A stretch of 64,000 nucleotides of DNA from Nannobrachium achirus. Taxonomy: Eukaryota; Chordata; Actinopteri; Myctophiformes; Myctophidae. The stretch spans positions 57,603,512-57,667,511 of the forward strand of contig OY997651.1 in the NCBI GenBank assembly GCA_963921795.1, given 5' to 3'. A model generated the notes under the pieces. That model did not search any database, was not told the origin of the DNA, and was given only the letters and a program-made list of their open reading frames with translations. Shown here piece after piece: positions 20,129-57,527 of this stretch (positions are counted from its first letter, which is position 1; each line of letters opens with the position of its first letter). The translations under genes were made by a program, and so were the position numbers.

Positions 20129-20380
20129 ACGCCCAGACACATTATTCTCCTCACTTACTCCCTCTAGTGGGTCAGGTCTAGAATCGCCAGAATGTTGAAG
20201 GCAAAGGAAGGACTTGCCACTAAATTATTAAAATTGGGGTTGTCTCACATTGTCTCACAAAAATATAATAGCCCTATTGGTTAAATGTAGCTCTCTGTAA
20301 ACAACACTATAGCAGATAACAGGTTAAAAAGGCTGTTATTTAATCTGACAGGCAAAGTGATGTTTTTTTATTGGCTGGCT

Positions 20381-20861
20381 CTGTGGAAAAAGTACTCACA
20401 TTTTTTACTTGAGTAAAAGTATCAATACTGCAATGTAGAAATACTCCGTTGCAAGTAAAAATCCTGAATTCAAAATGTACTTGAGTAAAAGTACAAAAGT
20501 ATTGGCATCAAAATGTACTTAAAGTACCAAAAGTAAAAGTACAAAATGTTTGAAAATAGCAGAGCTACAAGCTCACATTGAGCTTGTAGATCGGCTATTC
20601 TAAAATAGCAGAGGTATAAATTAGGGCTAAAGTTGTTAATGTATGTTTTATAATATTATAATTTAGATCTGCAAAGTAACTAGTAACTAAAGTTTTCAAA
20701 TAAATGTAGTGGAGTAAAAGTACAATATTTGGATCCGAGATGTAGATGTAGTAAGTAAAAGTATTGGAAATTGGAATAACTCAAGTAAAGTACAAATAAT
20801 TCAAAAGTGTACTTTTAAGTACAGTACTTAAGTAAATGTACTTAGTTACTTTACACCACTG
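20381..20861. mobile_element. hAT MITE inside the left TIR
   Basis: Ends CTGTGGAAAAAGTACTCA and its near complement (CAGTGGTGTAAAGTAACT) lie between GGCTGGCT repeats (20373-20380 and 20862-20869). The right TIR shows the empty site. A copy of the short hairpin lies at 20552-20600. Confidence 0.93.
20552..20600. repeat. Short hairpin family, copy
   Basis: GAAAATAGCAGAGCTACAAG with CTTGTAGATCGGCTATTC; the loop is almost absent. Confidence 0.8.
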
Positions 20862-21035
20862 GGCTGGCTTTATTATTATATTAGTGTTCTACAGTCATTT
20901 CTGATGCAACCCTCCTCTCTTGACTCTTTGTATTTTTTTTACAATTTCTGTGCTGGGGACTGCATGCGCCAAATGACCAAATATCAAATAAAAGATAACG
21001 CATGGTATTTTATTTACTAGACTGTCGTCACGTCG

Positions 21036-21070
21036 TCACGTGACTAGACTGTCGTCACGTCCTCACGTGA
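21036..21070. promoter_or_regulatory. Paired E-box elements in the left TIR
   Basis: TCACGTGA at 21036-21043 and 21063-21070, within a duplicated GACTGTCGTCACG unit. The right TIR has TCACGTGA at 57126-57133 and the CRE-like TGACGTCA at 57142-57149. The position just before the transposase suggests promoter function (inference). Confidence 0.4.
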
Positions 21071-21076
21071 CTACCA

Positions 21077-21221
21077 GACCGGAAAAACAACCCAAAACGA
21101 CTACAGGACTATGCTACAGCAGCACCCTACAGCACAGCACAGAGCACGGAGCACAGCTCATTCAGGAGAAGAGAAATATAACAAGTTCATTTTACCACAA
21201 ACAACATCGCTTGGTCGTAAG
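21077..21221 (+). other. Probable 5' non-coding exon of the transposase
   Basis: Ends in the strong donor CGTAAG/GTAAGA at 21221. The next coding ATG follows an acceptor (TTTATAG) at 22446. The transcription start is not determined. Confidence 0.4.
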
Positions 21222-21315
21222 GTAAGACATAGTCTGCGATTGTAATCCAATGCATTTTTGTGAATGTCCGCTAATCCGTGCAACACCAGGGCTAGGCGTT
21301 AGCTACCATAGTTCT

Positions 21316-21769
21316 CAGTGGTTCTCAACCTTTTCAGGCCGGGACCCCCAAAATAATAATATTTTAACTGGGAACCCCCCCCCCCCCCCCCCCCCCCCCA
21401 CCCTGACGAGCACTAGCCGCAAATTGCAACACTAGATTTAAAAAAAATCTAGTGTTGCAATTTGCGGCTAGACGAGCACTACGAATTGAGCAATTACATC
21501 TTGTACAACACGGTTCTATTGTGAACATAGCAGATCTACATGCTCACAGTGCGAGCATGTATTTATATGAAATTAAACATTTTAGCTATTTTCACAATTT
21601 ATGCGTTGTGCGTTGTGAGCGTGTAGTTCTGCTATTTTCACAATAGAACCGTGTTAAACAAAATGTAATGCCTCAACTCGTCAGGGTGGGGGGGGGGGGG
21701 GGGGGGGGGGTCCCCAGTTAAAATATGATTATTTTGGGGGTCGTGGCCTGAAAAGGTTGAGAACCACTG
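21316..21769. mobile_element. MITE, CAGTGGTTCTCAACC family
   Basis: Ends CAGTGGTTCTCAACCTTTTC and its complement. Subterminal poly-C (21377) and poly-G (21688) tracts mirror each other. It holds a perfect hairpin at 21413-21471 (CTAGCCGCAAATTGCAACAC arms) and the short hairpin family at 21521-21640. No clear target duplication. Confidence 0.8.
21521..21640. repeat. Short hairpin family, expanded copy
   Basis: Outer arms GTGAACATAGCAGATCTACA and AGTTCTGCTATTTTCAC with about 50 extra bases between, including a second partial arm (TTTTAGCTATTTTCAC). Confidence 0.65.
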
Positions 21770-22622: not shown

Positions 22623-22813
22623 TTTTAATGCTCAGGATCAGGCCATCCTCGATGAGTTGGACGAGCTTGTGCAAGAACCTCCACCAGCAACCAAAAAGAA
22701 AGCCTGTCCCCGTCCTGCACTACCTCGGAAAGTGAGGTGGATAGAGAGAGATGATGAGGATGGACATGTTGTAGTCAAGAGGCCAGCAATTGCTCGGAGA
22801 AAATCTGGACAGG
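22623..22813 (+). CDS. KDZ exon 2
   Basis: FNAQDQAILDELDELVQEP, then a basic stretch (KKKACPRPALPRK) and an acidic one. Acceptor TTTTCAG, donor GTTAGT. Confidence 0.7.
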
Positions 22814-23815
22814 GTTAGTATTCAGTTGCCAGCCAATATGTGCTGTACTCGGATTCTGCTCATAATAATAATTATAATAATCTTTTTTTCAGAACATAAA
22901 TGCTACCTTACGGTCGTTTATCCCCCGATTAGGGAGTCTTACTGGTAATAATAATAATAACAACAACCAGTAAGACTTTAGGGTGAGGTCACACACATGT
23001 GCGTTTGCAATGTATGTAGCTTCTTGCCTCCTAGGTTGAGCAGATCGCCACCCCGCTACCCCTTCCTCCCTGCACTACGCACACATGAACACAGTCATGG
23101 AACGAAAACACCACGCTCACGGGTGCTTCTTGCCTCTGAAAAAAATTATTAACTGCTAAAATATTGCAATTTTGCTATTTTTATGCAATTAGGCTACAGA
23201 GCACATTTGTTCATGATGTCTATGATTGTGCTAGATTGTTTTGGCTATATAGGCTCTGATATTCGCTACAGAGTATTTTTCGCGTTATACAGAGCGCATT
23301 TGTGAGCGCATTTGTGCATGTTGTCTATTGTGCTTATATTGTCTCTAATATTCACCTATATATTTCTATTTATCTTTGAAGAAAATAGAGAGATATTGTA
23401 ATTTTCATTAATTAATCATACACTTGGTGTGATTCTTATAAAGTTACATTCTTCTTCATATTGTTCCAATGAGAAACGGGGAGATGGGGGTAGCGGCACG
23501 CGTTTGCAATAGGTCATGATCCAGTCATCTCTATGGCTATCCAAGGTTTGATGAGATCAGTGTTGTGATATTCATATATGGATAATGGAGATCCAGGTGA
23601 TGATAGTCTGCATATATGAAGAGACATAGAGGCCCCATTTAGACTGCAGTCAAATCCAGCCTAAATCTGATTTATTGCTCAAATTTCTCACCTTTTGGCC
23701 CAACTGTCCACACTGCATTTGTAAGTGACCAGATCCGATGTCATTAGGTCGATCACCCTTTGGATCGACCACCAAAACCTAACCATAACCCTAACCTCAG
23801 TAAAACTATGCCTAA

Positions 23816-24050
23816 AGGCCCATTCCCACTGGGCCAGATAACAGATATCTGGAGATATTTCTCCAGATATTTCTCCATGCAAAGTGGATGGTAGATACAG
23901 ATAAAAAAATGTTTTGCCACAGATAAAAGTATCTGTGGCAAATATCTGTGGTAGATATTTTTTATCTGTATCTACCATCCACTTTGAATGGAAAAATATC
24001 TGGAGAAATATCTCCAGATATCTGTTAACTGGCCCAGTGGGAATGGGCCT
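23816..24050. mobile_element. 235-bp palindromic MITE, copy 1
   Basis: Folds fully: ends AGGCCCATTCCCACTGGGCC and its complement, flanked by TAA (23813-23815 and 24051-24053), as in PIF/Harbinger. Practically identical to 42197-42431. Confidence 0.88.
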
Positions 24051-24450
24051 TAAACCTAACCCTAACCTCAGTAACCGTGACGCGGGTGATTATCTAACCT
24101 GCTGACGCTGTTCGACCCAACAGGAGTTCGACCTATGGGGAAGTCCCCGTGATCTGTGTGTTCAGACTGATTTTAACAAACGTCAACCCAAAGTGCCCTG
24201 TGGCAACATATCTGTTTTGGTTACCGTGGTGATATTGCAGATAGCGTAAGACCTTTTTCTGCCATGTCGTGAGATAGGTCTTTATATATTGCCTTGCTTG
24301 TTCCTGTACACTTCTCATGTAGGCATAGGAACCCCCCAATCTTCTAGTCCACTGTCCACTGAATGCTGCTCGCAATCTCTTGTGTAGCACTTCTTTTGCT
24401 GAAATATTGTTTTATTTTCATTACACCCCTTGCACTCTCAAAGTCAAAAT

Positions 24451-24507
24451 GCAATCACCACTGATCATTACAAAGAGGGTGACTCTTTGTAATGATCAGT
24501 GGTGATT
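24451..24507. repeat. Perfect hairpin, 26-bp arms
   Basis: CAATCACCACTGATCATTAC and its full complement around a GGTGA loop, in a KDZ intron. Confidence 0.85.
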
Positions 24508-24759
24508 GGGTCACGTTGCTAGTGACGTTTTGGACCGCTTCATATGTTACTTGGGTCGTTAGATCAGGTTACTGCGTTCAGAGTCAGACTGAGACACATC
24601 TTTAGAAATCAGGTCTGAAACCACCTCTGGATGTGTCTCAAGTCACATTGAAATAATCGCGAGTCTGCATTTTGACTTATTTAAACAAATCCAATTCTAC
24701 TCTGGATGTGACTCAAATCTGAGTCAGGTTAGATTCAGCCTGCCAGTGTAAATTGAGCC

Positions 24760-25219
24760 ATAGATGGGCAGGGACCTCTAAATATGTCCATATATGGAAG
24801 GTGTTGATAGTCATCTCCATATATGGAGAGACACAGATGGGCACGGATCTCCAAATATGTCTATATAACGGCATTGCCCATATTAAGATGGTGTCGAGTC
24901 ATTGTCACTCCATTTGTAGATCTAGGTGATGGTCCAGTCATCTCCATGTATGTCTGGCCATGATTTGATGAGGTCAGTGTCGTGATCTTCATATATGGAG
25001 ATCCAGGAGATGATAGTCAGATCCCTGCTCACATGGGCAGGGATCTCCAAAAAGTCCTGACATCACAATGTCATGATGTCACATCATCAACAAAACTGTT
25101 GACCTGACAACAGGTTTCGTTGGTTCTGACATCACGTTGAGGGACAGGTGTATGACGGACAGACAGACGGACATACAGAATCTACATGTTTTCATGTAAA
25201 CTGTGACCTTCCGTTGCAA
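24760..25219 (-). repeat. CATATATGG-rich repeat headed by a short hairpin
   Basis: Repeated words CCATATATGGAG and GGGCAGGGATCTCC; ends at the small palindrome TGTGACCTTCCGTTGCAA (25202-25219). Related on the other strand to 34732-35286. Confidence 0.5.
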
Positions 25220-26024
25220 TAATAAATTGATTAGTTTGAGTTGGTTGTTTTGTTGGTTTCAGTTGGTTTTAGTTAAGTGTAAAATGTCTACATATTGTTG
25301 GAGTGGTCATAACAGTTGTCTCCTAGTCTTTTAGGTTTGCAGGTTATGACAACCAATTGATCCAATCGAATCATGCAGGATGCAGGATCAGTGATGACTC
25401 AAAGAAATTATGAAAATAAAATAAACTGGAACACTATAGTGGGAAAACTAGATGGCAGCACATCTGCTGAACACGTATTTTCTTTTTCTTAAAGACCTGT
25501 AGAGAGATGAGGTTATTGGAGACTATAATTAATAATAGAATATAATAAGTATTGTATTGATTTAATGTTTGGGGCCCTGCTCCTTGAATGACAACACACG
25601 CATGTCACTTAACACCTACACTACTAGCAGACCATCGATATGCATCCAGGCTTGTTCTATGTTAATGTCCAATGGTGTGATACTACAGCTTTTGTAAATA
25701 TTGTTGATGTGTAGACTTAAGGATTTTGTTTGTTTACATTGATGCATGTGCGTGCACATGCTCCTGAACAAGATTTGGGACGGAGTCTACCCATGTGACA
25801 ACCTATACAATACTGAATATAACTACCATATTATGTGGGCTCTAACACATTGAAAAGTTCCACAAATCCTTATTCACACTCTATACTCAGTGTGTTATCT
25901 ATCGACGATCTATCTATCGATCCATCTAATGATATATATAGTCATGTGACATGAGATATTTTTTGATACCGGTGGTCTGATTTAGTTGTAAAGGGCCATT
26001 AAAATTCTTTCTTTCTTTGTACAG
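25220..26024. other. KDZ intron, nothing recognised
   Basis: AT-rich intron between the repeat and exon 3. TCTATCTATCGA words near 25905-25925 only. Confidence 0.4.
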
Positions 26025-26105
26025 ATAAACCATGCCGTCCCAAGTCTACACACCCTATTGCGGAAGCATGGATTGATCCAGAGACAGCTTCAGAGACCGT
26101 ACCTG
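26025..26105 (+). CDS. KDZ exon 3
   Basis: DKPCRPKSTHPIAEAWIDPE; phase 1 at both ends; acceptor TGTACAG, donor GTAGGT. Confidence 0.65.
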
Positions 26106-26319
26106 GTAGGTCATTCAATATGTACTGTGTACAATGTTGTTTATATTTAATCAGCAGAGTGGCCCTGTTTTTTTACCTATTGGATAATTGTTTGCAAGCA
26201 TCATTCACTATGTTATCTAACACATTTTCTTTTGTATAAAAAGGTTCAAACGCTAGACAAAACAATATTTGGCCTCATATGTAGTACTAGTGCATGTCTT
26301 TCTTTTACAATTCCTATAG

Positions 26320-26706
26320 ACTGTCTTCTGCAAGACCTGCTGGAGTACCAGATGAGCTCTGATGAGGAACCAGAAGAGGTACTGGAAAGAGCTCCACTGG
26401 CAAAGGAGGATTGGACCACTCGAAATGCCATTTTTGCTGAAACTTGGAAGGCGCTGAGACCGGGACTGGTTAACAGCATGCTGGCTCAGGAGAAAGTTAC
26501 AACTTTCATCTGCAGCCAGTGTCGTACCAACGCAGCAGCAGTCAGGTGCAGAGACTGTCTCCCATGTCAGTTCCTCTGCACTGAATGTGACGACATCAGG
26601 CACAACCGGAACAACGTTCTCCACAACCGGGATGGCATGAGCGAGGGTTTTTTCAGGCCATTACCTCCAACTAGTTATATAGTGGATACCGCTATTAGAC
26701 ACTGTG
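26320..26706 (+). CDS. KDZ exon 4 (CxC zinc module)
   Basis: 129 codons. Acidic lead (SSDEEPEEV), then FICSQCRTNAAAVRCRDC, CQFLCTECDDIRH and NVLHNRDG. The spaced Cys and His residues match the cysteine clusters that accompany KDZ transposases. Confidence 0.9.
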
Positions 26707-26807
26707 GTAAGTTACATTTGAGTCACATGAGTATAGGTCACATGAGTAAATCTATTGTTTCAACACATGTAAGCAACTAAGCATCCAACTTAGCATCTGT
26801 CTAAATA

Positions 26808-26850
26808 AATGGTAAATGGTATTTATATAGCGCTTTTATCCAAGGCGCTT
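26808..26850 (-). mobile_element. SINE 3' tail fragment
   Basis: On the - strand: AAAAGCGCTATATAAATACC, then ATTTACCATTT, the same tail as the SINE at 45487. Confidence 0.6.
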
Positions 26851-27527
26851 AAACCTAACGAAAAGATTTCTCAGTCGTAATAAAATCGAGGCGAGTCGCG
26901 GCGCGCTCCCGTGATTCAGTCGTTACTCAATTGTTAAATGTGAGGTAGTGACTCGATTTTTACCCCGACTTGAGCGTGAGACCCCGATTCTGTTCCGAAA
27001 ATCGGGGGTGAGTCTGAATGAATACAATGAGGTAACAACAAAAACAGAACGCTTTGAGCCAAAACAAAAGCCATTCATTCTCCAAGACGCTGAGCTGCCA
27101 GCCTGGTCGACTCGCCACTAGTAGCTGTTGATGCGGCTACAAGTCCGACAGCCCTTTATTTCACCGCATATCATAATAGTAGCCTACATTATTCCAAACA
27201 TAAGAGGTTGACAATAATTTGATAGGATCAATCTGCGCCGGCTATGGAGAGAAGAGGAGAGAGAGAGAGGGCTGAGGGAGGAGGGCGGAGCTCGGTGTGT
27301 GTGTGCATGCAGACACAGTGATGGAAAAAGTACTCACATGTAACTTAAAGGAGCTATAGTAAACTTTTTCTTGAAAAACGGATGCTAAAATAAAAATAAT
27401 TAGAAAGTTTAAAGCATTACTTAAAATACAATAGTTAATTGAATGATATAACACAGATAACTAGTAAAGGGACCTTCGACTGCTATGTGATTTTCCTAAT
27501 AATTAATTAATTGTAACTCTCTTTTAG
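26851..27527. other. KDZ intron, unassigned
   Basis: A GC-richer stretch to about 27310 with no open frame of note, then a remnant CAGTGATGGAAAAAGTACTC (27316) like the end of the MITE at 20381. Confidence 0.4.
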
Positions 27528-27629
27528 TGCGATTCCTGCCCATTGAGATCCCAGCCCAAATTTGTGGTTGTCCACAAGAGCGTTTGAAGGTGCTCAAAGG
27601 GAAGGACGTTACTTTTGTCTCAATAAATG
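27528..27629 (+). CDS. KDZ exon 5
   Basis: VRFLPIEIPAQICGCPQERL; acceptor CTTTTAG, donor GTAATT. Confidence 0.8.
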
Positions 27630-27733
27630 GTAATTACTTTACATAAAGCATTTCATCTTCTCTACTTGGTCAACCGTCATTAGTGATGTAATTTCTATGG
27701 TAGTTGGAACATTACAGTGTCTGTTATTTGCAG

Positions 27734-27967
27734 GACGGTATCATCTCAGCATGCCACTGCTGATGTGTGAGGGATGCCAGAACACCTGGGAAGCAGGAGT
27801 GGAGGAGCTTGTGAGAAACGGCTACTGGCCCGCTACACACAAATTTGCAACAATTTATGCTGCAGACTTGTTTACCACGTTCGAGGACCTGAAGATGGCG
27901 TCACCAGGGCTGTCCGTTGAAAGCATTTTTAAAAATGCTTGACAAAAGGACTGAGCACTTTGGCCGT
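27734..27967 (+). pseudogene. KDZ exon 6, frameshifted
   Basis: GRYHLSMPLLMCEGCQNTW ... SVESIF, then the frame is lost in TTTTTAAAAA and meets TGA at 27940-27942. The next frame reads MLDKRTEHFGR up to the donor GTAAGT, the expected continuation. Confidence 0.85.
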
Positions 27968-28082
27968 GTAAGTACTAATTTCTTTGCTCTGCACTTCAAG
28001 TATTGTGAAAAGATTAGTATTTGGATATGAACGTTTCTGTTAAACCATTGTTTTTATTTCTGCTCTGCTGTTGTTTTTCTAG

Positions 28083-28261
28083 ACTGGGAAAATTTCATGC
28101 GACAGCTTCCATAAAAGCTTCTTTGAATGGGCTGCTGTTCGTTTTGAAATCGATACCCTCTGTAAAGAGGAACCATATTGCTGCCCAGCCTGCACTCCAT
28201 CCATGCTTGCGGTCTCTGTCGATGGAAACCGCAAGCATTACCGGTTTAGAAATACAGCAAG
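28083..28261 (+). CDS. KDZ exon 7 (first catalytic Asp region)
   Basis: ISCDSFHKSFFEWAAVRFEI, CCPACTPSMLAVSVDGNRKH. The VDGN motif carries the probable first catalytic Asp. Confidence 0.9.
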
Positions 28262-28366
28262 GTATAGTACAAATCCACACTGTTGATATCAAGGAAAGGC
28301 AAAAAACATCATGTATTTTCCACAGTGGCATTGTGTACAACATCTTAAATTTAACTTTTCTTTTAG

Positions 28367-28460
28367 ATCCAAGGAGCAAGGCATCTTCAATGGTTTATTC
28401 ATCGCCAGTGTGGATGATGTGGCCGGATTTGTCCAAAATATACACAGCAAAGTCAAACAT
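28367..28460 (+). CDS. KDZ exon 8
   Basis: SKEQGIFNGLFIASVDDVAG, continuing to KVKH; acceptor CTTTTAG, donor GTAATT. Confidence 0.85.
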
Positions 28461-28794
28461 GTAATTTCCGATTTGCTCTTCTCTCTGATTAAGTAAATCA
28501 TTTGCATTGTCAATTTAACCACTTAAATTCCCATTCGATATTTAGTGTAGTCCCTTAGGGCTACACTAGTCAGGGCTACACTAGTCCCTAGTCTTTGCCC
28601 TGAGTTTGACGATTTACTGCCTTCAGCAAAACTTTGCCCAGATTACAGATCCTTGGAGTCAAGTGGTTAAGTAGTGACAAGTATTTTTGTGACATCTACC
28701 TGCTTTAAAAATAACTTGCACTAATCTTGTTTGTTATATATTATGTCTGTTATTATTTTCTTTATTTTTATTTATTTGATTTTATTCCATGTAG

Positions 28795-29142
28795 GTCCCT
28801 GGCAAGGCTGTTTGTGGTGGGGAGTGGACTGCAGGCAGAGAAACAGCGGAACGGTCCAGGAGTAAATTGGACGAGGAGGGGCTTGAACTGGCTGTCTGCA
28901 GACACGGTGTCTTACTGGCGGCCTTAAGCATGTTTAGGGGCGAAATCTATGCATACCCCATGTTTCTTCAGAAACAACTGGCTGCCAAGCATGACATTGA
29001 ATTCTTTTATATGGATGTGGTCTGTAAATACTGGCCATACCTCAAAAAGGTGTCTGCAGAGTGTCCAGAGCTCCAGCCCCTTCTGACCATGAAGCCATGT
29101 TTAAGCACGCTACATGCTAAAGGGCATAATTATAAATGTGAG
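28795..29142 (+). CDS. KDZ exon 9 (transposase core)
   Basis: 116 codons with SKLDEEGLELAVCRHGVLL, MFRGEIYAYPMFLQKQL, FFYMDVVCKYWPYLKK, LLTMKPCLSTLHAKGHN. The most diagnostic KDZ exon; the Asp in MDVVC is a probable catalytic residue. Confidence 0.93.
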
Positions 29143-29307
29143 GTAAACAATACATTATTATAAGATAATGGTCCATCCTATAAATGATCTGACAATCACG
29201 TACCAGTGTGTGAAAACAGAGGAGCGATCTGAGTAATCAAAAAAGTAAATGAGGAGAGGGCGGGTGTATAATCAGTGCCAGTGGTTCGAAACATGTTGGC
29301 TTGTAAT

Positions 29308-29700
29308 TGCGACTGTCAGGTCGCACTTACTATCAAAACCTCCACCGCCTGTCTGTCAGTCAGTCCGTCCGTCTGTCACGTCATGTCACGTCACGTCACA
29401 CTTTTGCCCTGCTCATATCTCCGCAACCGTTGCCCCGATCCATGCCAAATTTTGCACACACACTCCTTGCCTGCCAAACCACACCCTCCACCAATTCTCA
29501 CATGGCCCTCTTCTAGCGCCACCATGAGGCCGATTCTTGCAAAACACATTTTTGGACACTGCTCCTACAATTTTTGCCCTAAAATCACGCAAATCGGTAC
29601 ACAGTATGTCTACACTCATCTCATCAACATGGATCTGTCCCTTCACCTACCTTACGCTTTTTAACTCAACTTGTACCGCCACTGAACTAACTATAATATG
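29308..29700 (+). repeat. GCGACC/GGTCGC hairpin-headed repeat, copy
   Basis: Begins with the palindrome TTGCGACTGTCAGGTCGC, then GTCTGTCTGTCAGTC-like words and TTTTTGGACACTGCTCCTAC. Further copies at 38283 (split), 43985 (- strand) and 50085. Confidence 0.65.
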
Positions 29701-29830
29701 GTTTCCTCTGCCATCGGCATATGAATGTGTGTGAAATAACAATACGATGGGAATGATGCACAAAAATGAATTTCTCCTACTTCCAAACTTTTGTAAATCT
29801 CTAATGTGAACAAATTTATTGTGAATTCAG

Positions 29831-29948
29831 GTGAAATGGAGCGGTGCATATCAGGATGGCACAGGATCCACGCTGGGAGAAGAAGTGGAACAAACAAACG
29901 CATTTCTCTCCAGGATAGCTGTAACGACTAAGCACATGTCAAAAGAAG
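29831..29948 (+). CDS. KDZ exon 10 (Glu region)
   Basis: KWSGAYQDGTGSTLGEEVEQ, TNAFLSRIAVTTKHMSKE. GEEVEQ holds the probable catalytic Glu. Donor GTGCAG. Confidence 0.9.
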
Positions 29949-30034
29949 GTGCAGTGTACTTGTACATTTGGATATAGTCGAGTGACATTATGATAATGAG
30001 AATTTTTCTAGAACTCCTCTATGTGTACTTGCAG

Positions 30035-30126
30035 GTCGCAGTGACATGCTGACCCTTTTGTCCATGAGATGGAACCGAAATAAATTTGACAACATGGCCA
30101 ATGCTCTCTCCCAAAGATACCACAAG
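30035..30126 (+). CDS. KDZ exon 11
   Basis: RSDMLTLLSMRWNRNKFDNM; acceptor TTGCAG, donor GTAGAA. Confidence 0.88.
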
Positions 30127-30250
30127 GTAGAAACTGTTGTTTCATGTAGTCATGCTGTGTACTTTGCATGATGTAAAACAATCATATGATGACTTGAGTT
30201 TCTGTCATAAAATACACATTGGAAGGACTTTGTTTTGCTTGTAATTTCAG

Positions 30251-30365
30251 ACTTTGAGAGCATTAAAAAACACCCTGGCAGACCTTGACAACATGAAAGC
30301 ACGGCTTCAACTCCGAGAGGAGAATATTGAAGACTATGTGAAAGACATAAAGGATTGGGCAGCTG
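30251..30365 (+). CDS. KDZ exon 12
   Basis: TLRALKNTLADLDNMKARLQ, a coiled-coil-like stretch; donor GTAAGA. Confidence 0.85.
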
Positions 30366-30807
30366 GTAAGAACATGATAAACATGATGATAAACTAGACT
30401 GCACTCTGTTGAGGTGCCAACTTGCACAATGTGCACTCGTAGCCATGTATGGCCTATTTTTAGCTAGCAGAGCACACAAGTACATGGAGGACAACAACAC
30501 ACAGCGAATGACACATTGCAGAGCTTGTAGCTTGTGTTGTTTGTTATGTTGTTAAGTGTGATATTACTCTGTCGAGGTGCCAACGTGCGCTTTGTAATTT
30601 ATATATATCAGGACAAACTTGTTGTTGGTGATGTCAACAAGAATGCTAGACCCTCATTGGCTGTTGATGGGAACGTTGTCTGGAATGCTGGTCCGTATTT
30701 GGCTACAGGCATACACAGACACCGAATTCAGTTATGCTGGCGCAAGTAAATATGAATATTTTATTCCTTTTTTCAATTAAATTGACTCCGTTCTTAATGT
30801 TTTTAAG

Positions 30808-30898
30808 GAGAGTCTGAACATCCTCCAGGCACACTGCAGGCTTTGTCCCAAAAGATTGAGGCCCTCACTAGCAGCATCAAGACCAGGAAGGGCCGAAT
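30808..30898 (+). pseudogene. KDZ exon 13, left part (interrupted)
   Basis: GESEHPPGTLQALSQKIEAL through IKTRKGR, then cut by the 30899-32968 insertion. Confidence 0.85.
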
Positions 30899-32968
30899 TA
30901 GGGTGGATCTTAAATTACCTTTTTTTGATTTTCTTGAGTCTCACCCCCCAATTGTGTTCCAATGTACAAAAAATGCTTTGGTTAAAATTTGGTTGAATTT
31001 CAAGCATATTTAGAGGTAGCTCAATCAAGTCAAAGATTGTACATTTTATTGGTCAAAATCGAATTGCACTGCAGGCACATTTAAGTTATACATTACACAT
31101 TATTCTTATACTAAGCACAGAAATTATATTTTTTAAGCTTACAAATCTAAACACAAATCTGATTACATGTTTGTCATATGTCAAACCAGAATTAATGTAT
31201 TGTAGGAAATAGCAAAGCAAAGAATGACAATTTGCAATTTTTCATTTAACGTGCACAATGACATGTCTTTATTGCACACTCTTCAATCATACTCTTCAAC
31301 ACACAACAAGCACACAGCCCCACTTCCTTGTTTACCCCCAAAACCCCTGAAAGTCACTGCAGTATAGTAATTCAGTAGTTACAGTACAGATCAATTAAAG
31401 TTTGTTTACGGCTATCGGGATACTTGTGCCGATAGTCCTGCACAATTTGCAGCAAGTATTGGAGTTGGGACTCATCTTTAGTAATGAGACCACAATATTC
31501 TTGTATTAGGTCAACCCCACGCTCTGCATGATCATTGACAACATGCATCGCCTTCACTACAGCCAGAGCTTCTTGGTAGTCCTCCCTGGGCTCCCACTCA
31601 AAGCACCTTGGAAAAAATCTTCAATGTTCTTCCTTGCAATTGTTCCAAGGTCAACAGTAATTCTCTTCATATGCCCCTGTTCACCATAAGTGATTGGAAA
31701 ACCTTTGAGAAGCAGCTTTAGACACCTCAGCATTTATTGATGAACCGGATACCTCGCTGCTCGAGGTATCCGGTTCAGAGCTCCAGGAGCTACCCATCAT
31801 GCCCGTTGGATGGCAAAGGTTATTTATTGTATGAAGATCTGGATGTTTCATGGCCAATTCAAACTGACCTTCAGGGAAGAAAAAGCATGCATGGATTTGT
31901 GCATTTTTGCAGTTTACAATTATGTGAAGGCATCATAGGCATGGATGATGGCACCTGTTGCTGTCAGCGCTCCACTAAATGACTTGGCAGCTGTTAAAAT
32001 TGTTGCTGGAATATTCATCAATAAATGCTGAGGTGTCTAAAGCTGCTTCTCAAAAGTTTTCCAATCACTTATGGTATTTGGCTCCAGAGATCGTCGGACT
32101 TGCATTGTTTGACAGTCAAGTGAGCGTGCAAACGAAGAGGCTGATGGTGAGAGCCATGAAAGATGGAAATGAAGATCATGAACAGGGGCATATGAAGATA
32201 ATTACTGTTGACCTTGGAACAATTGCAAGGAAGAACATTGAAGTGCTTTTCAAAATGATGGATCTCCCAGGTGACTTCCTTGACGTTGAGCCCGATGAGT
32301 GGGAGCCCAGGGTGGACTACCAAGAAGCTCTGGCTGTAGTGAAGGCGATGAATGTTGTCAATGATCATGCAGAGCGTGGGGTTGCCCTAATACAAGAATA
32401 TTGTGGTCTCATTACTAAAGATGAGTCCCAACTCCAATACGTGCTGCAAATTGTGCAGAACCATCGGCACAAGTATCCCGATAGCCGTAAACAAACTTTA
32501 ATTGATCAGTAACTACTGAATTACTATACTGCAGTGACTTTCGTTTTTTTTTTGGGGTAATCAAGGAAGTGGGGCTGTGTGCTTGTTGTGAGTATGATTG
32601 AAGAGTGTGCAATAAAGACATGTCATTGTGCACGTTAAATGAAAATGTAATTCTTTGCTTTGCTATTTCCTACAATACATTAATTCTGGTTTGACATATG
32701 ACAAACATGTAATCAGATTTGTGTTTAGATTTGTAAGCTTAAAAAATATAATTTCTGTGCTTAGTATAAGAATAATGTGTAATGTATAACACATTAAAAA
32801 AATTCGATTTTGACCAATAAAATGTACAATCTTTGACTTGATTGAGCTACCTCTAAATATGCTTGAAATTCAACCAAATTTTAACCAAAGCATTTTTTTG
32901 TACATTGGAACATAATTGGGGGGTGAGACTCAAGAAAATCAAAAAAAGGTCATTTAAGATCCACCCTA
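30899..32968. mobile_element. 2.07-kb fold-back DNA transposon with unknown protein, inserted in KDZ exon 13
   Basis: Ends TAGGGTGGATCTTAAAT and its complement lie between GGCCGAAT (30891-30898) and GGCCGCAT (32969-32976), an 8-bp target duplication with one difference. Two long arms (30899-31739 and about 32010-32968) are inverted copies. The right arm carries a 177-codon frame; the left arm is an internally deleted copy of it. The central 270 bp include a perfect hairpin (TGAACCGGATACCTCG) at 31738-31776. Confidence 0.88.
31979..32512 (+). CDS. Unknown transposon-associated protein, C-terminal part
   Basis: 177 residues with HLWYLAPEIVGLALFDSQVS, KRLMVRAMK, VVNDHAERGVALIQEYCGLI and TKDESQLQYVLQIVQ. 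I do not recognise a named domain. The pattern looks like a conserved family end, since the inverted left arm keeps the VNDHAERGV and TKDESQLQY segments with few changes. The start is doubtful: upstream another frame (NDLAAVKIVAGIFINKC) reads better, so a frameshift near 32030 is likely. Probably the 3' end of the element's own gene (inference). Confidence 0.6.
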   Translation: MTWQLLKLLLEYSSINAEVSKAASQKFSNHLWYLAPEIVGLALFDSQVSVQTKRLMVRAMKDGNEDHEQGHMKIITVDLGTIARKNIEVLFKMMDLPGDFLDVEPDEWEPRVDYQEALAVVKAMNVVNDHAERGVALIQEYCGLITKDESQLQYVLQIVQNHRHKYPDSRKQTLIDQ

Positions 32969-32990
32969 GGCCGCATCTATGAAGAACATG
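32969..32990 (+). pseudogene. KDZ exon 13, right part
   Basis: GGCCGCAT is the second copy of the target duplication; the exon then runs IYEEH to the donor GTATAT. Confidence 0.8.
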
Positions 32991-44477: not shown

Positions 44478-47400
44478 TGTGTGTGTAGCATCTTCAAAAG
44501 CTTGAAGAAATTGGATACCAGCCGGTTTTGTTTATTGCGAAACCCGTCAAAGGCAAACTTGTTTGCGATGTGATCACCAGCCTGGGCCGTGGAGCAGGGA
44601 ATCCAATGAAGGGCTACATAAATAGGATGAAGAATGCCTATACCCACATGATTACACGTAAGGCTAATTGCGTTTTAGGAATTGATATTTTGGAGTATGC
44701 CGTCATATGGTCAAATGTTATAGCAAAATCTACCATACAAGTATAATGGGCAACAATTGAGTGTGGAAGTTTGGCCTGGAATGTTTTGTCAAATTTGTTC
44801 CGTCAGGCAAAAATAGTAGATTTAGCAGATACAAGTTATTGTTGTCAGAGTTTGTAGAAGATTGTCTATTTTTTGCTGTACAGCATGTTCACTGAGCCTT
44901 CTACACTAAGGTCTCATTGGCACTCGCCCGCCGAGCAAGTGCAGGTCATTTTTCAACCTGCTCGAAGGTCATGTGCACTTTCACGAAAAGTAAATCGTCC
45001 ACTAAATTATGTTCAATCTTTTGTGTGGTAAAGAAAATGTCGTACCTCATTTTTAGTATGCCAAATAACCTATACCTACATAGCTATGACTATGGATTGG
45101 ACAGTTATTTAATTTTTACGTTGTAGTTTTAAGTTTAGCAACAGTAAAAATGGCACTTTGTTCTACAGTGCTCTTATTTTACATTCCACAGACCAGAAGA
45201 CGGGGCGCTCTGGTGTTTATTTGGTGTTGTGTTTAGCGTCCCCTCTCAAATCTGCACTTGCCCAGTCTGGCAACCTGAATGCAAACTCCTCCTGCCTGAA
45301 TTTATTGTTTTTCCTGCCAAGGGAAGATGGGCAACCCTTAGTGTCAACCTCTGCCTTCAAAATAATGATGAAATGTTCATTCACCCACATTTCAGGTCTA
45401 AACATTTATCCTACAAGGCAACAAAGCCATGGCAATTCACTACATTCAAGACAAGATTAATTGCGGCATAGCTCAATTAATCTTGTGGGGCAGCATAGCT
45501 CAGGGGTAGAGAAACTGGTATTAGAGCACGAAGGGTATAAATCCCGAAGGGTTCCCAGTTCGAATCTGGGCTCCCCCTGAGTTAATGTCGAAGGGTCCTT
45601 GGGCAAGACTCTGAACCCCACATTGCTCCTGGTGAGCTGGTTGGTGCCTTGCATGGTTTCCTCCGCCACCGGTGTATGAATATGTGTGTGAATGGGTGAA
45701 TGTAATGCACAATCTATGTAAAGCGCTTTGGATTAAAAGCGCTATATAAATACACCATTTACCATTTTGCTATCCACCCTCTCCTGGACACCTATATGAG
45801 TTAATGCTGACCAAGCCATCTCTAAAAGCCTGAACAACAATTCACACACTGTCCCAAATTGTGGAGTAACTGGCATGTTCAAACTTAACCTCACCCCCTA
45901 GCTATTCCTCGTATTATGTTCACATGCATGTATGTTTTTTTTACCACGTTAATGAATGTTTAGAGAAATTAACAGTTAATTATCTGTTTTTATTTATGAC
46001 ACTATTTACTTAACAGACTTCATGCATGTTTATTCCAGTCTTGCACTCACTCTTCATGAATCATCTACTAAAAAGTTTAATCGTACATTACATATACTCT
46101 TGATATACGTTTCAGATTATGATAGGATACTTGGAGATCCCTCCCCTCCTCCAAATTCAGACGCCACAGTGCCCAGCTCAGTGCCAGCAGACGCAGAGCT
46201 CCCTGGACCCTCTTCTCAACCTCCTCAATCTACCCTGCCATGTCCTACCACTGAAGTTGCAGAGCTCACTGGACCCTCTTCTCCAAGTATGTATCATCTT
46301 TTTTTTTTCTGCATCGCCAGGTCAATAAGAACTAAAATTGTGGAGTCTTAAGGGCGGATTCACACTGCAGTCTTGGGGTGCATTCTCGCGGCTGCTAGGT
46401 AGATGTTTGGATAGTGTGAAGCATGCATACTATCAGAAACGCCAGCCCCGAGAACACCTCCGTAGGTAGTCTAGAGTCTGCATGATGCGTCCTTGAGAAT
46501 GGTGCGCTGCAATGTGAAGCTACCGTTCTATAAACCCAAAGGAAGTTAAAATATAAGGAAGGGAAACACGTGACCATTGGGACCGGCCATGACGCTCCCA
46601 TGGGTGCCAGAATGATGGAGCCGGCTAGATCAGCTCATGAACAAACCTGGAAGAAACACTATTTATGAACAACTGAGATCTTTCTGATCAGGAATATAAA
46701 AGAAAATATATCAAAGGTATTTTTACAATCACTTGCTTTTCGATGTGCATAAATAATAATAACAGTTAATAATAATCGTTTCTTTCTCCTAAGTATCGCG
46801 AGATTTGGTTCACAGACAGGAAACGGTGGATGGTCTCGCGATACTGGCACCCATGGTGAGCTTTATGGCTGGACATGGTGTATCCCTGTTGTCACGTGAT
46901 GTCCCTACCTCATATTTACCTTGTATAAACCCAAGGTAAATAAAGAGGTAAAGACAGCCACGCCCCTTTCGCTATCTCACAGTTCCAACCGGCAGATTCG
47001 TTGCACCATGGGTGCCAAACTGCAGCCGGAAGTCCGGTGGAAGACAGTGGAGCAGCCTCCCAGCAGCTCATGAAGTTGATGAACTAACACTATTTATGAA
47101 AAAGTGAGACCTTTATAACATACTCGGCTCAGGAAAATAAAAGAAGGCATGTCACACACTTTTTTTGTGCTGTGTGGATTTTCGATGTGTGCACTGTCAT
47201 TTTATAGCAGTATCTAAAGAGCAAAAAGTATGTTTCTAAACGTGCCAGGTATTGCAAGACTATCCACCGTTTCCTGTCTGTGAACCAAATCTTGCGATGC
47301 TTTGGAGACAAACAATTATTATTTACTGTTATTATTATTTCTTTATGTATTGTGCACATCGAAAAGCAAGTGATTGTAAAAATACCTTTGGTATGTTTTC

Positions 47401-49553
47401 TTTTATATTCCTGAACAGATTATATGACAAAGGTCTCAGTAGTTCATAATAATCATAAATACTTTTTGTTCCAGGTTTGTTCATGAGCTGATCTAGCCGG
47501 CTCAATCATTCTGGCACCCATGGGAGCGTCATGGCCGGTCCCAGTGGTCACGTGTTTCCCTTCCTTATATTTTAACTTCCTTGTATAAACCAAGAAGTGG
47601 TGATGGTTCAGCTAGGATGAAATTAACAAGGATTGGTCCACAACGTCACTAATATGATATACCAAGGATGTGCCAGTGACGTTACTGTAATGCGATAACA
47701 GACAGTGTTACATACATTGTGATGTTTCAAAGACAGTCAGCACACACTACTTTGGTTGTGTATTGTTGTTCTGTTGTCACAACTCAAGATAATGTCAGGA
47801 ACACAGTAAAACTTCAAGATTCGCTCAAAATTCTGACATGATACTCTTCTGTAACATGTTTTATAACTCCCACAGCCCCCATAGTCAACAGCGCCCCCGG
47901 GAGGTACACAAATACAATTACAGTTGAATGAAGTGAGTCCAGGGCTATTTAAGCCATGACATCATTTTGTAGTCAGACCTCCAAGCAGATTTATTGTCAA
48001 TATCTGTCTCTCGCTATTTCAACAGATCCGAGACAAAAAATAATGACTCAAGTATAATTCTACCACTTTCCTTTCAACAACAAAGAGAATGAAAAATTAG
48101 TAAATAATAAAAAGATTGGGGCCTGGTGCCTTTTGGCCCCAAAAGTTCTCCTCTGACTACAAAATGTCAGACTTAACAGCCCCATTGAAGACAGAGTGTG
48201 TGTAGTTAATTTTGAGATGTTTCACAGACACAAATTGTCGTGTGTAATCTGCCAACAACGAGGTGATGAGATGCAAAACTCCCTTTCAGAGTTAACTAAA
48301 AGTTAAAACACATTATCCAAAGCCATTTGTCCTGTACATCAACTTGTGCATCGCTGTTTATTACTCGAGAAAGTTGCACATTTGGAAAGGGGAAAAGGCC
48401 AAGTCTCCTACCCCACCAACATTAGGAGCACGTTTAGCCTAGGTTATTGTGTGATGTAAAATGTACATAATATATGCCTCTGATTTTCTGTGTGTAACTC
48501 GGTTACAGGCATGTCTACGGAACAGCTGGCTGGAGGAAAGAAGAGAAAGAACGGTATGTTGAGGATACATTAGTCTTTTACCTGTTAAAAATAAATACTT
48601 GAATTTAAGCCTAACCCTAAATTAAACGTCTGTCACAGGTCCAAAACATGAAACCTCCGGACAACAAAAAAAACGGGTGAAGAAAGGTATGTTGGACTCG
48701 TTTTTAAAGGGCCACTTCACCCCTGGGACAACCCTATCTTATTTTATTGTTCTTTGGGACACGATCAACACAATCCTGAGTTATTTTTTGTGTTCAGTCT
48801 GTTTTTTGAGATATTTTAGTATTCAGCATGTGCTAGTGATGCATTTTGCATCATATGATGCAAAACGCATCACTGGATGATGCAAAACGCATCACCAGTA
48901 CATGCTGAATTCTAAAATATCTAAAAAAACAGACTGAACACAAAAAATAACTCAGGATTGTGTTGGTCGTGTCCCAACAACAATACAATAAGATAGGGTT
49001 GTCCCAGAGGTGAAGTGGCCCTTTAATAATAGAATAATAGAATTCGCCCTTCGCTATGCCCCTCCCCGTCCCGTCCTTGTCTTATCCCACGTTGGCAACA
49101 GGCACAGACATAAAAAGGTAGACGCCTCTTCCGGCTCTCTGGTACCCGTCTCGCCTTGGTGGGCCTTTTTGATTGACAGGCTTGGAATTCTTCTGTGTCA
49201 CGGAAGGTCGGTAGGCAAATCAGAGGCAGGTGGGGTCTTTTCCTACGCAGCTAGCTCTAGTCCCGGAAAAGACGCGTTGTGATTGGCCAGTAGTTTTTTG
49301 AGTGGCAGCCTGCCCTCGACACTTCCTCTTTTGAGCTCACCAAGGCAAGACTGTCGCTCCAATCAACTGCAGCGGGTGGACGAGGTATCTAGCTTTTTAT
49401 ATCTGTGGGCAACAGGTTACAAAGGGAGGCAATATGGCACGCTCCTATGGCACGAGCCACACTTTTTTTTCTCCTTTGCGAGGTCAATAAGGACTAAAAC
49501 TTGTAGTCTAATTGAAGACAAACGGAGTGCCTGTAGTTCATTTTGAGTTTTTT

Positions 49554-49640
<87 letters not shown>

Positions 49641-52600
49641 ACTCTCTCACACTCGTTTAGTCTGCCTGCAATGAATAGAAACGGTTAAAAAGGCCAAATC
49701 AGGAAAAGCAAACCTAAGTTAATTAATTTGAATATGCAGAAAGCAATTTCCCACAACATTAACTAACCTTTGTTACAGGTGTGACCACACAGACTGCTGC
49801 AAAATCCCCTCTCCTCGACCTCCAAAAATACTTAAACGACCCTAATTCATACATGCCTCACACCTCACCACCTGCGCAGCAGGAAGTGAAGAGTAAGTAT
49901 TAATTTCCCACATCTTACAAAAAACTTAAAATCAGGGTTTTGTTTTCAAATAGCCTGGTTATTGTGTGATGTGAAATGTACATAATATATGGCTCTGGTG
50001 ATTTTTTTTTCTGTTACATGTATGTCTCCAGAACAGCAGCCAGGAGGAAAAAAGAGAGGGAATGGTATGTTTGCGACCGCCAGACCCATGCAAAACAGAT
50101 TTTTGGACACTGCTCCTACAGATTTTGCCCTAAAATCACACAAAGCGGTACACAGTATCTCTAAAGTCATGTCATCAACATGGATCTGTCCCTTTTCCCA
50201 TATTCCCTCCTGATTGGCTACCATTGACTTCCTTCTAAAGTTTGTGTCGCGTGGCAACCTGATGGTAGCTTATCTCCAGATTAGGGAGTCTTACTTTTTT
50301 TTCGAGATTTTAAGTGATTATCGAGCTTGACAAACTGAGTGAGGTCTTATAAGTTATGGCACAGTGTTCCTCAAAGTTATCCAGGTGCTCAAAATGTTAT
50401 TTGAGCTGGGGACACACCAAACATTGAAGTGGGGGCCCATCCCACCCTGCATAGAGTTGTATTACACTTTGTTTTACTTCTTTCCACAGTTAATGTTGAA
50501 AGTAGTTCATCGACAATATGGTAACACCTCACTTAACAAGGAGTGGTTGGCCTCTCTCTTAACGCTGTGACAGACACTCACTCAGACAGACAGACACTCA
50601 CTCACTCAGACAGACATTCGGAAAATTATGTTTGATGTAACATTAAGGTGCCCAGACTTATCCTGTGACCACTATAAATAGAATAAATCAGGTGATATGT
50701 TTATCAACACATCCATGGCTTCTGAAAATGCTTGCATCACACTGACCTTGAAGAGGCGTGACAGTGTACATAATTCTGATTGTCACCTTTTTATGTATTT
50801 TTATTGAATATTTCATTTGCTAGTTAGACTTGTTTGATAAGGGTGTAATGGTATAGTGAAAAGAGAAGTAATAATAATTGAAATAACGTAAAACAGAACG
50901 CGAAACAGAAGGACCATTGTCTTTTGCTTTGTATACTGACACACTGTACGGCAACCAATAATCATTACAATAGGTACTAACACTTGGCCACTCTCTGGGA
51001 TTGATGAACTGTTGTGTCTGTTGGGATGTTGTTTCTTTTGGGCCAGAAACATTATCTCCATAGTTTATTTAAATGTTACACAAAAGTAGTGAAGAATAAG
51101 CCCACAGTGCAATATGGACTTGATCCACTTGTATCAAAGGTTTTGAACTGTTTTTTGATGTGTGTAAAACATAGGCAACTGGAATTTAAGTTTGTAAAAC
51201 GTCTGTTACAGATCCAAAACCTGAACCTCCCCACAAAGAAGCAGAGCTCCCTGGACCCGCTGCTTCTCATCCTCCGCCATCTACCCAGCCATGTCCTACC
51301 ACTGAAGGGCCAGCAGAAGCAGAGCTCACTGGACCCTCGTCTCCAAGTACGGATCATCTTTTAGATTTTTTTTCCTGCATCGCCAGGTCAATAAGAACTA
51401 AAATTGTGGAGTCTAATTGAAGACAGAGAGTGTGTAGTTAATTTTGAGATGTTTTACAGACACAAATTGTCTTTTGTGTAATCTGACAACATACAGTTTG
51501 AAAGAAATGATGAGATTAGGGTTGGGGACGGTAACCGCCGTACCGCGGCCGTTGCGAGTTTTAAAACGGCGGGGGAGAAGCGAGGTCCGCATGCGCTCCA
51601 TGCCACTGTTCTGGACTGCGTACCACATGTTTGGAAGCTCGGGCCGTTCGGAGACAGACCTGCACTGCACACAGTTGGTTCAGCCTCTCTGAGCAGCGTT
51701 AAACTTTCTCTAGACTATAATCCACACAACACGTATACATACCTTGTGGCAGTTTCTTTTTTATTCAAACGGGCAGAGCGCGAGCCAAGGACTAAAGCAA
51801 GGACTAAAACCGAAAATGAAACAAGCCTTTACTTTCTCCACCACGCCGCTGAATCCAGTTGCAGGAGCACTTTGTGCGGTAATTCCGTTGTGCCACGTCG
51901 GCGATTTTACAAACTTTTCTGTCAAGTCTTGTAACTAAAACCTGTCTATATGTTTATCAAATTCAATCCATGCGATTTGAGACTCACGTCTCAAATCGCA
52001 TTGATTGAAGGGTGATATAAATCACTGTACACAGTACTCAATCTACCCGTCTCTCATCTGGTTGTTGTTCACACACCGCAAAATGTGTCTGAAAAGCCCC
52101 AGTAGCCTACGTTACTATAGTAACCCGAGTGCACAGATCTACAAGCTCAGAACACGTCGCGGATGCGACGTGTTGTGAGCTTGTAGATCTGCTCCTTTCA
52201 AAGGCAGACCCGCTGTGCTGTACAGGGATGTATAATTCGGGCAGTGCATTTGTGCATCGCTGTTTATTACTCGAGAAAGTTGCACATTTGGAAAAGGGAA
52301 AAGGCCAAGTCTCCTACCCCACCAACATTAGGAGCACGTTTAGCCTTATTATTGTGTGATGTAAAATGTACATAATATATGCCTCTGATTTTCTGTGTGT
52401 AACTCGGTTACAGGCATGTCTACGGAACAGCTGGCTGGAGGAAAGAAGAGAAAGAACGGTATGTTGAGGATACATTAGTCTTTTACCTGTTAAAAATAAA
52501 TACTTGAATTTAAGCCTAACCCTAAATTAAACGTCTGTCACAGGTCCAAAACATGAAACCTCCGGACACCAGAAGAAACAGGTGAAGAAAGGTATGTCGG

Positions 52601-55574: not shown

Positions 55575-55703
55575 GGAGGAAGTGATGACGCTGTTGGCGT
55601 GGAAACCATTACCATGCATCTCCATTTTGTTTATTTTTGTGTTGTTGTTGTCTTGTTTGAGTGACAAAAGAGAAGTTTGAAAAAATGGGTTACAAATTTG
55701 TGA

Positions 55704-55709
55704 AATAAA
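55704..55709 (+). terminator. Poly(A) signal of the chromodomain gene
   Basis: AATAAA 130 bp after the stop, followed by TGTCCTGTGTTTTGTC, a GU-rich downstream element. Confidence 0.65.
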
Positions 55710-55738
55710 AAGACTTTCTGTCCTGTGTTTTGTCTCTT

Positions 55739-55760
55739 CCCCCCCCCCCCCCCCCCCCCT
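55739..55760. repeat. Poly-C tract
   Basis: About 20 C shortly after the chromodomain gene poly(A) signal. Confidence 0.9.
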
Positions 55761-55779
55761 TTCAAACATCTTTGCCCAA

Positions 55780-57117
55780 AAAATGGCAGCTCTAATTAGT
55801 GAATATTTTGTGCTGTGCGCTTATATTAATTGAATACAGTTCCACCCTGGGTATGACCGTTAAACGATAAAATCTGATTTTATTATGATTCCTTATAATT
55901 GACTTAATTGTTTTCTTCATACATTGGTCTCCTTAGTGTTGCATATAAGTCATGCTAGGCCTGTGCTTTATTTTTCCATAGGCATTAGAACCATTGACCA
56001 CAATTTGATGAGTTTTAGGCTCAAACAGGCTCTCAAACTAAGCCTACAATATTTTATTGATAGGTAAGATTCTGTCCCAATTCAATGTGGTGGAGCGGAC
56101 GTCAAAGGTTGATCAAAATAAGTCTACGTACTCTTGTGTTGGATTATGTTCTTGAGTGAATATATTGTACTCTGAATTTATACTCTTGGGTTGTGTTCAT
56201 TTAGGTCTGCACTATACACTTACTGTAGCTGGGGCCCACCTAAAACGTATCTACTGAATAGACTAATCCACAGTGCAACTCTGATCAATGGTGCATTTAT
56301 AGTTTATGACTGTTGTTTACGGCAACCACATTGTGCATTTTGACACCTTAGCAATGACAAGCTGTAGTAGTGGCATGCCTTACTGGCAAAGCAAATGACA
56401 GTAAAACATGTATCTATAGATTACCCAGGACAAATATGCATTATGCAATACACCTTGTTTTAAAGTGATTGAACTGGATTAATACATAGATATTGATAAC
56501 TATTCTGATAACATGAACAAATTAACTCAAAGTAATCACATGTGGAATGGTTTGAAGACTTGAAGAAGATTGAAGACTTTATTAGAAGTTTCAGGTTTGC
56601 ATAGGAAAAGGTACAGTTTCATGACGGTACAGTTCACTGGTACAAGGTCCACTAAGTGCTTTATTCAAATATTTCAGTTTGGTCTGTCATGAACAACCTT
56701 TTAAATCAGAGCTGAATTAATTCTTAAAATAAATAATGCTTATTTTTCTATAGCTCTACACTCAGAAGTACACACAGTCAAATGTAATTGTGGTAAACAT
56801 CTAAATATTTTACTGGATAGTAAGATAAAAGCCTTGTGTTGTGATTAATTTCTAAAGCAGCAGCAACCTCAACAATAATGAATTGGTGGTTGTTTTTGAA
56901 GGAGGGGAGCGTCCTTAGCAACCACCATAGTAACAACCCACACAGCACCATGTCACTCATGTCGTCGTATACGATCACTAACTCAAGTTTATGATAATGG
57001 AATACCCAGGTCTTTATAGAATTGATCAGGTTCTTTGCTTTACTGAAACCGTCTAAAAATGTTTACTTTATGCAGTGAACACTAGAGTTATAAGTAGGAA
57101 CACTACCGGTAGTTTTG
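55780..57117. other. No gene recognised
   Basis: AT-rich sequence between the chromodomain gene and the right inverted repeat; no frame or repeat with clear ends. Confidence 0.5.
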
Positions 57118-57527
57118 ACAGGTAGTCACGTGACGTCCCAGTGACGTCAGTCTAGTAAATAAAATACTTTATATTTTATATATTTTGGCATTTGGCGCAT
57201 GCAGTCCCCAGCACAGAAAGTGTAAAAAACGTTTTTTTTTTTTTCTTTTTTTTTTTTAAAGAGTCAAGAGAGGAGGGTTGCATCAGAAATGACTGTAGAA
57301 CAACACATTTATATTATATAAAGCCAGCCAATAACCTGTTATCTGCTATAGTGTTGTTTACTGAGAGCTACATTTAACCAATAGGGCTATTATATTTTTG
57401 TGAGACAATGTGAGACAACCCCAATTTTAATAATTTAGTGGCAAGTCGTTCCTTTGCCTTCAACATTCTGGCGATTCTAGACCTGACCGCCAGAGGGAGC
57501 AAGTGAGGAGAATAATGTGTCTGGGCG
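57118..57527 (-). repeat. Right terminal inverted repeat of the giant element
   Basis: The complement matches 20129-21076 without the hAT MITE. It contains CCGCCAGAGGGAGC (57488-57501), close to the CTCF core; the left repeat has the related CCACTAGAGGGAGT on the - strand at about 20157-20170. Confidence 0.85.

Follow-up and report, generated by a model that had tools for sequence, protein, structure and literature searches.

The window analysed here is the whole 64,000-nucleotide stretch of the Nannobrachium achirus genome (1.66 Gb, 564 contigs) at G000:C14:57603512-57667511. It contains a long inverted repeat enclosing two multi-exon genes on the same strand, a KDZ transposase gene and a second gene, hereafter gene 2 (Table 1). 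The block was studied as a candidate large transposon. An earlier description made from the letters of the window (the sequence-only reading) had already proposed this arrangement, which was borne out by repeat arms 97-99% alike, by Pfam domains PF18758 and PF18804 in the transposase gene and by eight spliced exons in gene 2. Its view that an insertion splits the left repeat only was likewise correct.

Repeat arms, ends and genes of the block

Inverted repeats were searched for in the window and the 25 longest of 311 pairs were retained. The arms at 20170-20326 and 57332-57488 (157 nt) are 99% complementary and are separated by 37 kb. The longer alignment covers 199 nt at 97%, and inner blocks continue towards the genes on both sides. 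This inverted repeat is far above chance expectation. The terminal inverted repeat (TIR) of the window copy is about 540 bp long.

The repeat proposed earlier stood, but its outer edges (20129 and 57527) did not. The right arm runs 129 bp beyond 57527 to ...GAGAATGTGTTG, ending at 57656. This position was taken as the true right end because the match to a partial relative at C1:74.77 Mb, 98.5% identical up to this final base and with diverging flanks beyond it, stops there, and because small dispersed elements that have the last 120 bp or so in common with the right end show GTGTTG ends and 7-bp duplications. On the left, arm homology stops at 20128 and the outer 129 bp or so are absent; a search of the whole window found no remnant of the outer TIR elsewhere. 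The left partner of GCTATTC was looked for between positions 8000 and 22000. There were two exact matches, at 12074 and, within the inserted repeat, at 20594, and no CAACAC-like start follows either of them; a match with one mismatch at 17777 is followed by CACGCG and lies inside a long interspersed nuclear element (LINE). With the left terminus lost, the window copy offers no readable target duplication. The 5' end of the LINE at 20084 was fixed by two other copies stopping at the identical base, and its position suggests that the LINE may have caused the loss of the left end. Between it and the damaged TIR (20084-20123) lies a repeat fragment of 35-40 bp that is present at several other sites in the genome.

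Five of the 19 scored dispersed elements (L023, L024, L031, L040 and L041) have CA(A/G)CCC...GTGTTG ends and a 7-bp duplication. L042 is a doubtful sixth, 13 have no recognisable partner and L025 gave no match. The same five contain a tRNA-like B box and look at first glance like short interspersed nuclear elements (SINEs). A SINE reading of the 120 bp or so beyond the right repeat and of the outer 60 bp of the repeat (tRNA-like box, common tail) was dropped once dispersed copies proved to have CA..GTGTTG ends and 7-bp duplications; for the same reason the C1:74.77 Mb copy was no longer considered to be of retrotransposed origin. It is scarcely credible that the arms are unrelated dispersed repeats that happen to lie on either side of a KDZ gene and a host gene. 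Such a view could draw on the likeness of the outer end to small elements at many sites, but five of the 19 such elements scored carry transposon-type ends and duplications of their own, the genome has only three close matches to the TIR arm, of which two are in the window, and gene 2 is tied to KDZ genes at most of its loci (see below).

Positions of the KDZ exons were obtained by matching exon translations back to the window DNA. The KDZ transposase domain PF18758 was found on 28795-29160 (E 2.3e-15, 57.4 bits against a cut-off of 26.6), with a second match below the cut-off on 29825-29974 (E 4e-4). The KDZ-associated cysteine cluster CxC3, PF18804, was found on 27634-27939 (E 9.2e-9, 35.5 bits against a cut-off of 26.6). 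The exon translations contain the stretches SVDGN, YMDVVCKY and GEEVEQ, which we take to hold candidate acidic catalytic residues of the transposase. The reading frame breaks in exon 27734-27968, which is open in two relatives (C15 and C22), so the window copy probably makes no full transposase. Through this frameshift and the loss of its end, the copy is probably inactive.

For gene 2, eight combinations of nearby splice sites leave the frame open, and the model with the smoothest exon joins was chosen. Its first exon contains CPxC...CxxC followed by K..N..R, with 10 of 67 columns invariant across six relatives. Pfam gave weak zinc-ribbon matches, which were below the cut-off for the window protein, and the gene is predicted to encode a zinc-ribbon-like protein. 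The chromodomain attributed to it by the sequence-only reading was not recovered: a simple six-frame motif scan gave nothing convincing and Pfam reported no chromodomain on the gene-2 exons submitted, which were part of the set. Homologous proteins were sought among 160 candidates and none reached E <= 0.01. Extra copies of two tail exons lie at 52416-52599; a 362-bp stretch carrying two tail exons is duplicated inside the gene, at 48344-48705 and 52250-52610 (97.5%).

Table 1. Coordinates of features in and beside the two-gene block (positions in the window)
Feature	Position	Strand	Basis or remark
Left TIR, outer part	20128..20326	+	97% inverted match to 57332-57529; outermost ~129 bp missing
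Left TIR, inner part	20861..21053	+	85-90% inverted match down to 57117
Right TIR, complete to terminus GTGTTG at 57656	57117..57656	-	Arm match; end common with C1:74.77 Mb; terminus type as in complete relatives
GCTATTC, expected right copy of 7-bp target duplication	57657..57663		Flank sequence; left copy lost
Dispersed repeat in left arm only (limits approximate)	20372..20860		Absent from right arm; relatives on C1, C7, C16 and C22
KDZ transposase gene, multi-exon	22630..34418	+	Pfam PF18758 and PF18804; matched-back exon translations; homologous exons elsewhere in genome
KDZ exons, first half (approximate)	22630-22813, 26322-26705, 27527-27637, 27734-27968 (frame broken), 28083-28463 (two exons)	+	
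KDZ exons, second half (approximate)	28795-29145, 29825-29950, 30034-30129, 30248-30364, 33526-33696, 33945-34418 (intron inside)	+	
Nested inverted-repeat element within KDZ gene	30899..32968		Arms 30899-31600 and 32296-32968, 92%; open reading frame 31979-32512
Gene 2, eight exons	43161..51346	+	AG/GT borders, open frame; homologues beside KDZ genes
Gene-2 exons	43161-43355 (zinc-ribbon-like), 44489-44657, 46116-46286, 48509-48553, 48639-48686, 49779-49892, 50032-50064, 51212-51346	+	
LINE (endonuclease and reverse transcriptase)	15824..20084	-	PF03372 and PF00078; 5' end 44 bp outside the damaged left end

Two-gene relatives and their target duplications

The genome was searched with the KDZ catalytic exon, all 60 of 60 candidates were scored and 43 matches were obtained. 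They form sets of equal score at separate sites: C4, C15 and C433 are 82% identical to the window, C6, C22 and C24 69%, two sites on C3 and one on C5 66%, and C6 and C13 65%. Element ends were searched for with the DNA adjoining gene 2 on C22 as the query; 40 of 22,745 candidates were scored, and the results apply to the matches listed. Near-identity between copies was checked at the DNA level for C22, C24 and C6.

Complete two-gene elements of 24.9, 25.0, 25.4 and 29.1 kb were found. Each has CAACAC...GTGTTG ends and inverted terminal repeats and is flanked by a perfect 7-bp target duplication. The copies on C22, C24 and C6 are about 99% alike and each contains a KDZ gene and gene 2. In the C24 and C6 copies, the first 3365 bases of the C22 query recur at about 99% at the corresponding end, and from about base 105 onwards the query recurs inverted at the opposite end in all three, which gives TIRs of about 3.26 kb. 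These elements are bounded by CAACACAGTCTCAC...GTGAGACTGTGTTG and are flanked on both sides by ATGTCAC (C22), CCGTGGC (C24) or GACTCAC (C6). As three copies about 99% alike have different duplications, a 25-kb two-gene unit was inserted whole. A more diverged copy of 29.1 kb at C1:68768059-68797144, also with a KDZ gene and gene 2 inside, has CGTTAGC on both flanks. Two-gene KDZ blocks of 24.9-29.1 kb have been inserted as units at separate sites in these relatives.

Further end pairs with a perfect 7-bp duplication were read on C8 (TGCACGT, 15.0 kb), C10 (CCTTATT, 2.35 kb), C6 at 66.67 Mb (GATTGGA, 15.2 kb) and C4 (CACTAAA, 45.1 kb). Both the perfect 7-bp duplication and the CAACAC...GTGTTG termini were present in all eight end pairs read, these pairs having been picked among the matches listed. 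The target duplication of 8 or 9 bp expected by the sequence-only reading is thus replaced by one of 7 bp. Single ends without a partner lie at C14:57911302 and C1:86938317. The former (G000:C14:57911302-57913637) is another TIR of the C22 type, about 244 kb past the right edge of the window, with KDZ exons at C14:57919189 and 57920129. The TIR pair on C4 (G000:C4:58328549-58373660) has no KDZ match inside; it is a non-autonomous element of very large size, or else it has been enlarged by nested insertions. The KDZ N-terminal (cysteine-cluster) exon is repeated at least nine times at G000:C11:55564849-56005239, often at a spacing of about 17-20 kb. No match to the KDZ catalytic exon was found on C11, and these copies may belong to a KDZ-derived gene arrayed locally.

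Gene 2 was found at eight loci with the window exon as the query and at 14 with the exon of a relative. For the linkage count, 25 KDZ loci were kept from the 43 matches after second-exon rows had been merged, short partial KDZ rows (2-40 of 112 residues, C6:8.5-11.4 Mb) being set apart. Gene 2 lies within 25 kb of a KDZ exon (at 8-22 kb) at 10 of the 14 loci, a count in which near-identical copies are not independent. These loci span five KDZ groups, defined by equal identity to the query and not by a tree. The two genes are on the same strand in the window, on C4 at 46.57-46.60 Mb and on C15 at 51.76-51.80 Mb, and convergent on C6, C22, C24, C1, C3 (twice) and C5. Other copies of the gene pair, for which the sequence-only reading had proposed to look, therefore exist; no copy with both outer edges of the window block was obtained. 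The C1:74.77 Mb relative has one end within the 60 kb read and the relative on C9 has no TIR match.

The same distribution bears on the origin of gene 2. It is highly improbable that this is a host gene captured as cargo, in the manner of fungal Starships. It is indeed a separate multi-exon gene, and at four of the 14 loci (C9, C8, C14:23.49 Mb and C1:67.77 Mb) it has no KDZ exon nearby. Against capture stands the finding that the same gene, with a first exon in the window 34-51% identical to those of copies that do not belong to the window's own family, is found with five KDZ groups and in two gene orders. This fits an old standard component and not variable cargo, and the earlier picture of a passenger gene in a counterpart of giant cargo transposons was abandoned.

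Nested repeats and neighbouring features

The open reading frame in the element nested within the KDZ gene (Table 1) gave no Pfam match at E <= 0.01. To the left of the block, a near-perfect palindrome occupies 11309-12518, with arms of 591 nt that are 99% complementary and 28 nt apart. Serine-protease exons, apparently from tandem gene copies, lie at 869-1258, 8208-8627 and 14437-14832. Pfam Trypsin was matched on both of the exons scanned, and the third was assigned by likeness. Just to the right of the block, an open frame of 766 amino acids at 58938-61238 gave no Pfam match at E <= 0.01. We take this frame to be reminiscent of hAT transposases.

Interpretation and comparison with known elements

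The block in the window was interpreted as an old copy, now degraded, belonging to a class of large KDZ transposons that have CAACAC...GTGTTG ends and long TIRs and carry two genes, one for a multi-exon KDZ transposase containing cysteine clusters and the other a conserved zinc-ribbon-like gene. A probability of about 0.85 was given to this reading. Several observations weigh against it. The window copy has neither a left terminus nor a readable duplication, and its TIR resembles those of the complete relatives in the terminal motif only. Nested repeats inflate its 37.5 kb, whereas the complete two-gene relatives measure 24.9-29.1 kb. No second complete copy of its own family was found in the genome: of its close relatives, the one at C1:74.77 Mb is partial, the 60 kb read there containing a single end, and the one at C9:66.17 Mb is also partial, matching the window in gene 2 (89%) and in inner DNA (92-97%). 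The 29.1-kb copy on C1 has a stop in its KDZ exon. The two genes also occur apart, gene 2 at the four loci named above and KDZ at loci with no gene-2 match within 25 kb (C433, C6:1.56 Mb, C13, C1:74.47 Mb and several partial loci).

Two of these points, the unreadable duplication and the differing limits of the partial relatives on C1 and C9, would also fit a composite block in which the two arms are the ends of different KDZ insertions and gene 2 never lay between the ends of one element at this site. This was considered improbable. Over 199 nt the arms agree at 97%, they go on matching further inward, and the order and strand of the genes agree with those of the KDZ/gene-2 pairs on C4 and C15. 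The degraded-transposon reading was preferred. Movement as a single unit, proposed earlier for the whole block, holds for the relatives on C22, C24, C6 and C1, which have perfect duplications; a 37-kb move of the window copy itself cannot be shown, given the unreadable duplication, the nested repeats and the partial state of its close relatives.

In the proposed mechanism, the KDZ transposase would bring the two ends together, cut both and join them to the target with a 7-bp stagger. The zinc-ribbon-like protein might act as a helper or regulator of transposition, a role to which we give about even odds. The second proteins of Harbinger or CACTA elements offer a comparison for it. Only about 105 bp separate the start of the TIR in the C22 copy from the first coding exon of gene 2, which lies downstream. 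The long TIRs may therefore also provide both inward-facing genes with a common promoter. After insertion, the window copy would have gained its nested repeats and the transposase frameshift, and its left terminus would have been lost where the LINE now sits.

Zisupton was reportedly first described in fish, by Bohne in 2012. Zisupton is described as a member of the KDZ superfamily with a multi-exon gene, TIRs and 8-bp duplications (PMC12730594, PMC9297572). The elements described here have the same kind of transposase, a multi-exon gene and TIRs, but all eight relative end pairs have a duplication of 7 bp. Fungal Kyakuja elements, as described, combine a KDZ transposase with 7-bp target duplications, 5'-CA..TG-3' termini, no TIRs and a multi-gene content that includes a TET/JBP gene (PMC12730594). 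The transposase, the multi-gene content, the 7-bp duplications and CA..TG termini of the eight relative pairs and the GTGTTG of the right end of the window agree with that account. In contrast to it, TIRs are present here, with a length of about 540 bp in the window copy and of about 3.26 kb in those on C22, C24 and C6, and the second gene is zinc-ribbon-like; no TET/JBP gene was noticed in this element, no search having been aimed at it. On its domain, ends and duplications, the element would be filed in the KDZ superfamily with Kyakuja-like ends and not as a proven Kyakuja. For nematode KDZ elements, one study reports TIRs and no duplications (PMC9297572).

Among giant DNA transposons, Teratorn of medaka is described as combining a piggyBac-type transposase with a herpesvirus genome; it measures about 180 kb and has about 90 other genes (PMC6431247). 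Like Teratorn, the present element is a giant TIR-bounded DNA transposon of teleosts, but a KDZ transposase and two genes were seen here. Starships of fungi, by their abstracts, have a tyrosine recombinase and variable cargo. They resemble the present element as large mobile units carrying more than a transposition gene, and differ from it in the enzyme, which here is a KDZ transposase, and in their cargo, the second gene being the same each time here (for gene 2 only, across five KDZ groups). No tyrosine recombinase was found in Pfam scans of selected open reading frames, no search having been aimed at one. Because its second gene does not vary, the element does not appear to be a Starship counterpart.

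Among the titles and abstract openings listed in literature searches, outside Repbase and the founding papers Bohne 2012 and Iyer 2014, none describes a two-gene fish KDZ element. We lean slightly towards a KDZ lineage apart from Zisupton, with a two-gene module, 7-bp duplications and TIRs of up to 3.3 kb doubling as promoters, which moves units of 25-29 kb and includes one TIR pair spanning 45 kb with an intact duplication. Few non-viral cut-and-paste DNA transposons of vertebrates would be larger. What was a guess from one damaged copy has become a testable class: a non-viral animal DNA transposon with defined ends and duplications and a partner gene, which has moved about 25 kb as a single block. 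The defined ends would help annotators to tell such elements from host genes resembling them. Should the partner prove necessary for moving DNA of this length, the two genes could be tried out together as a large-capacity gene-delivery system.

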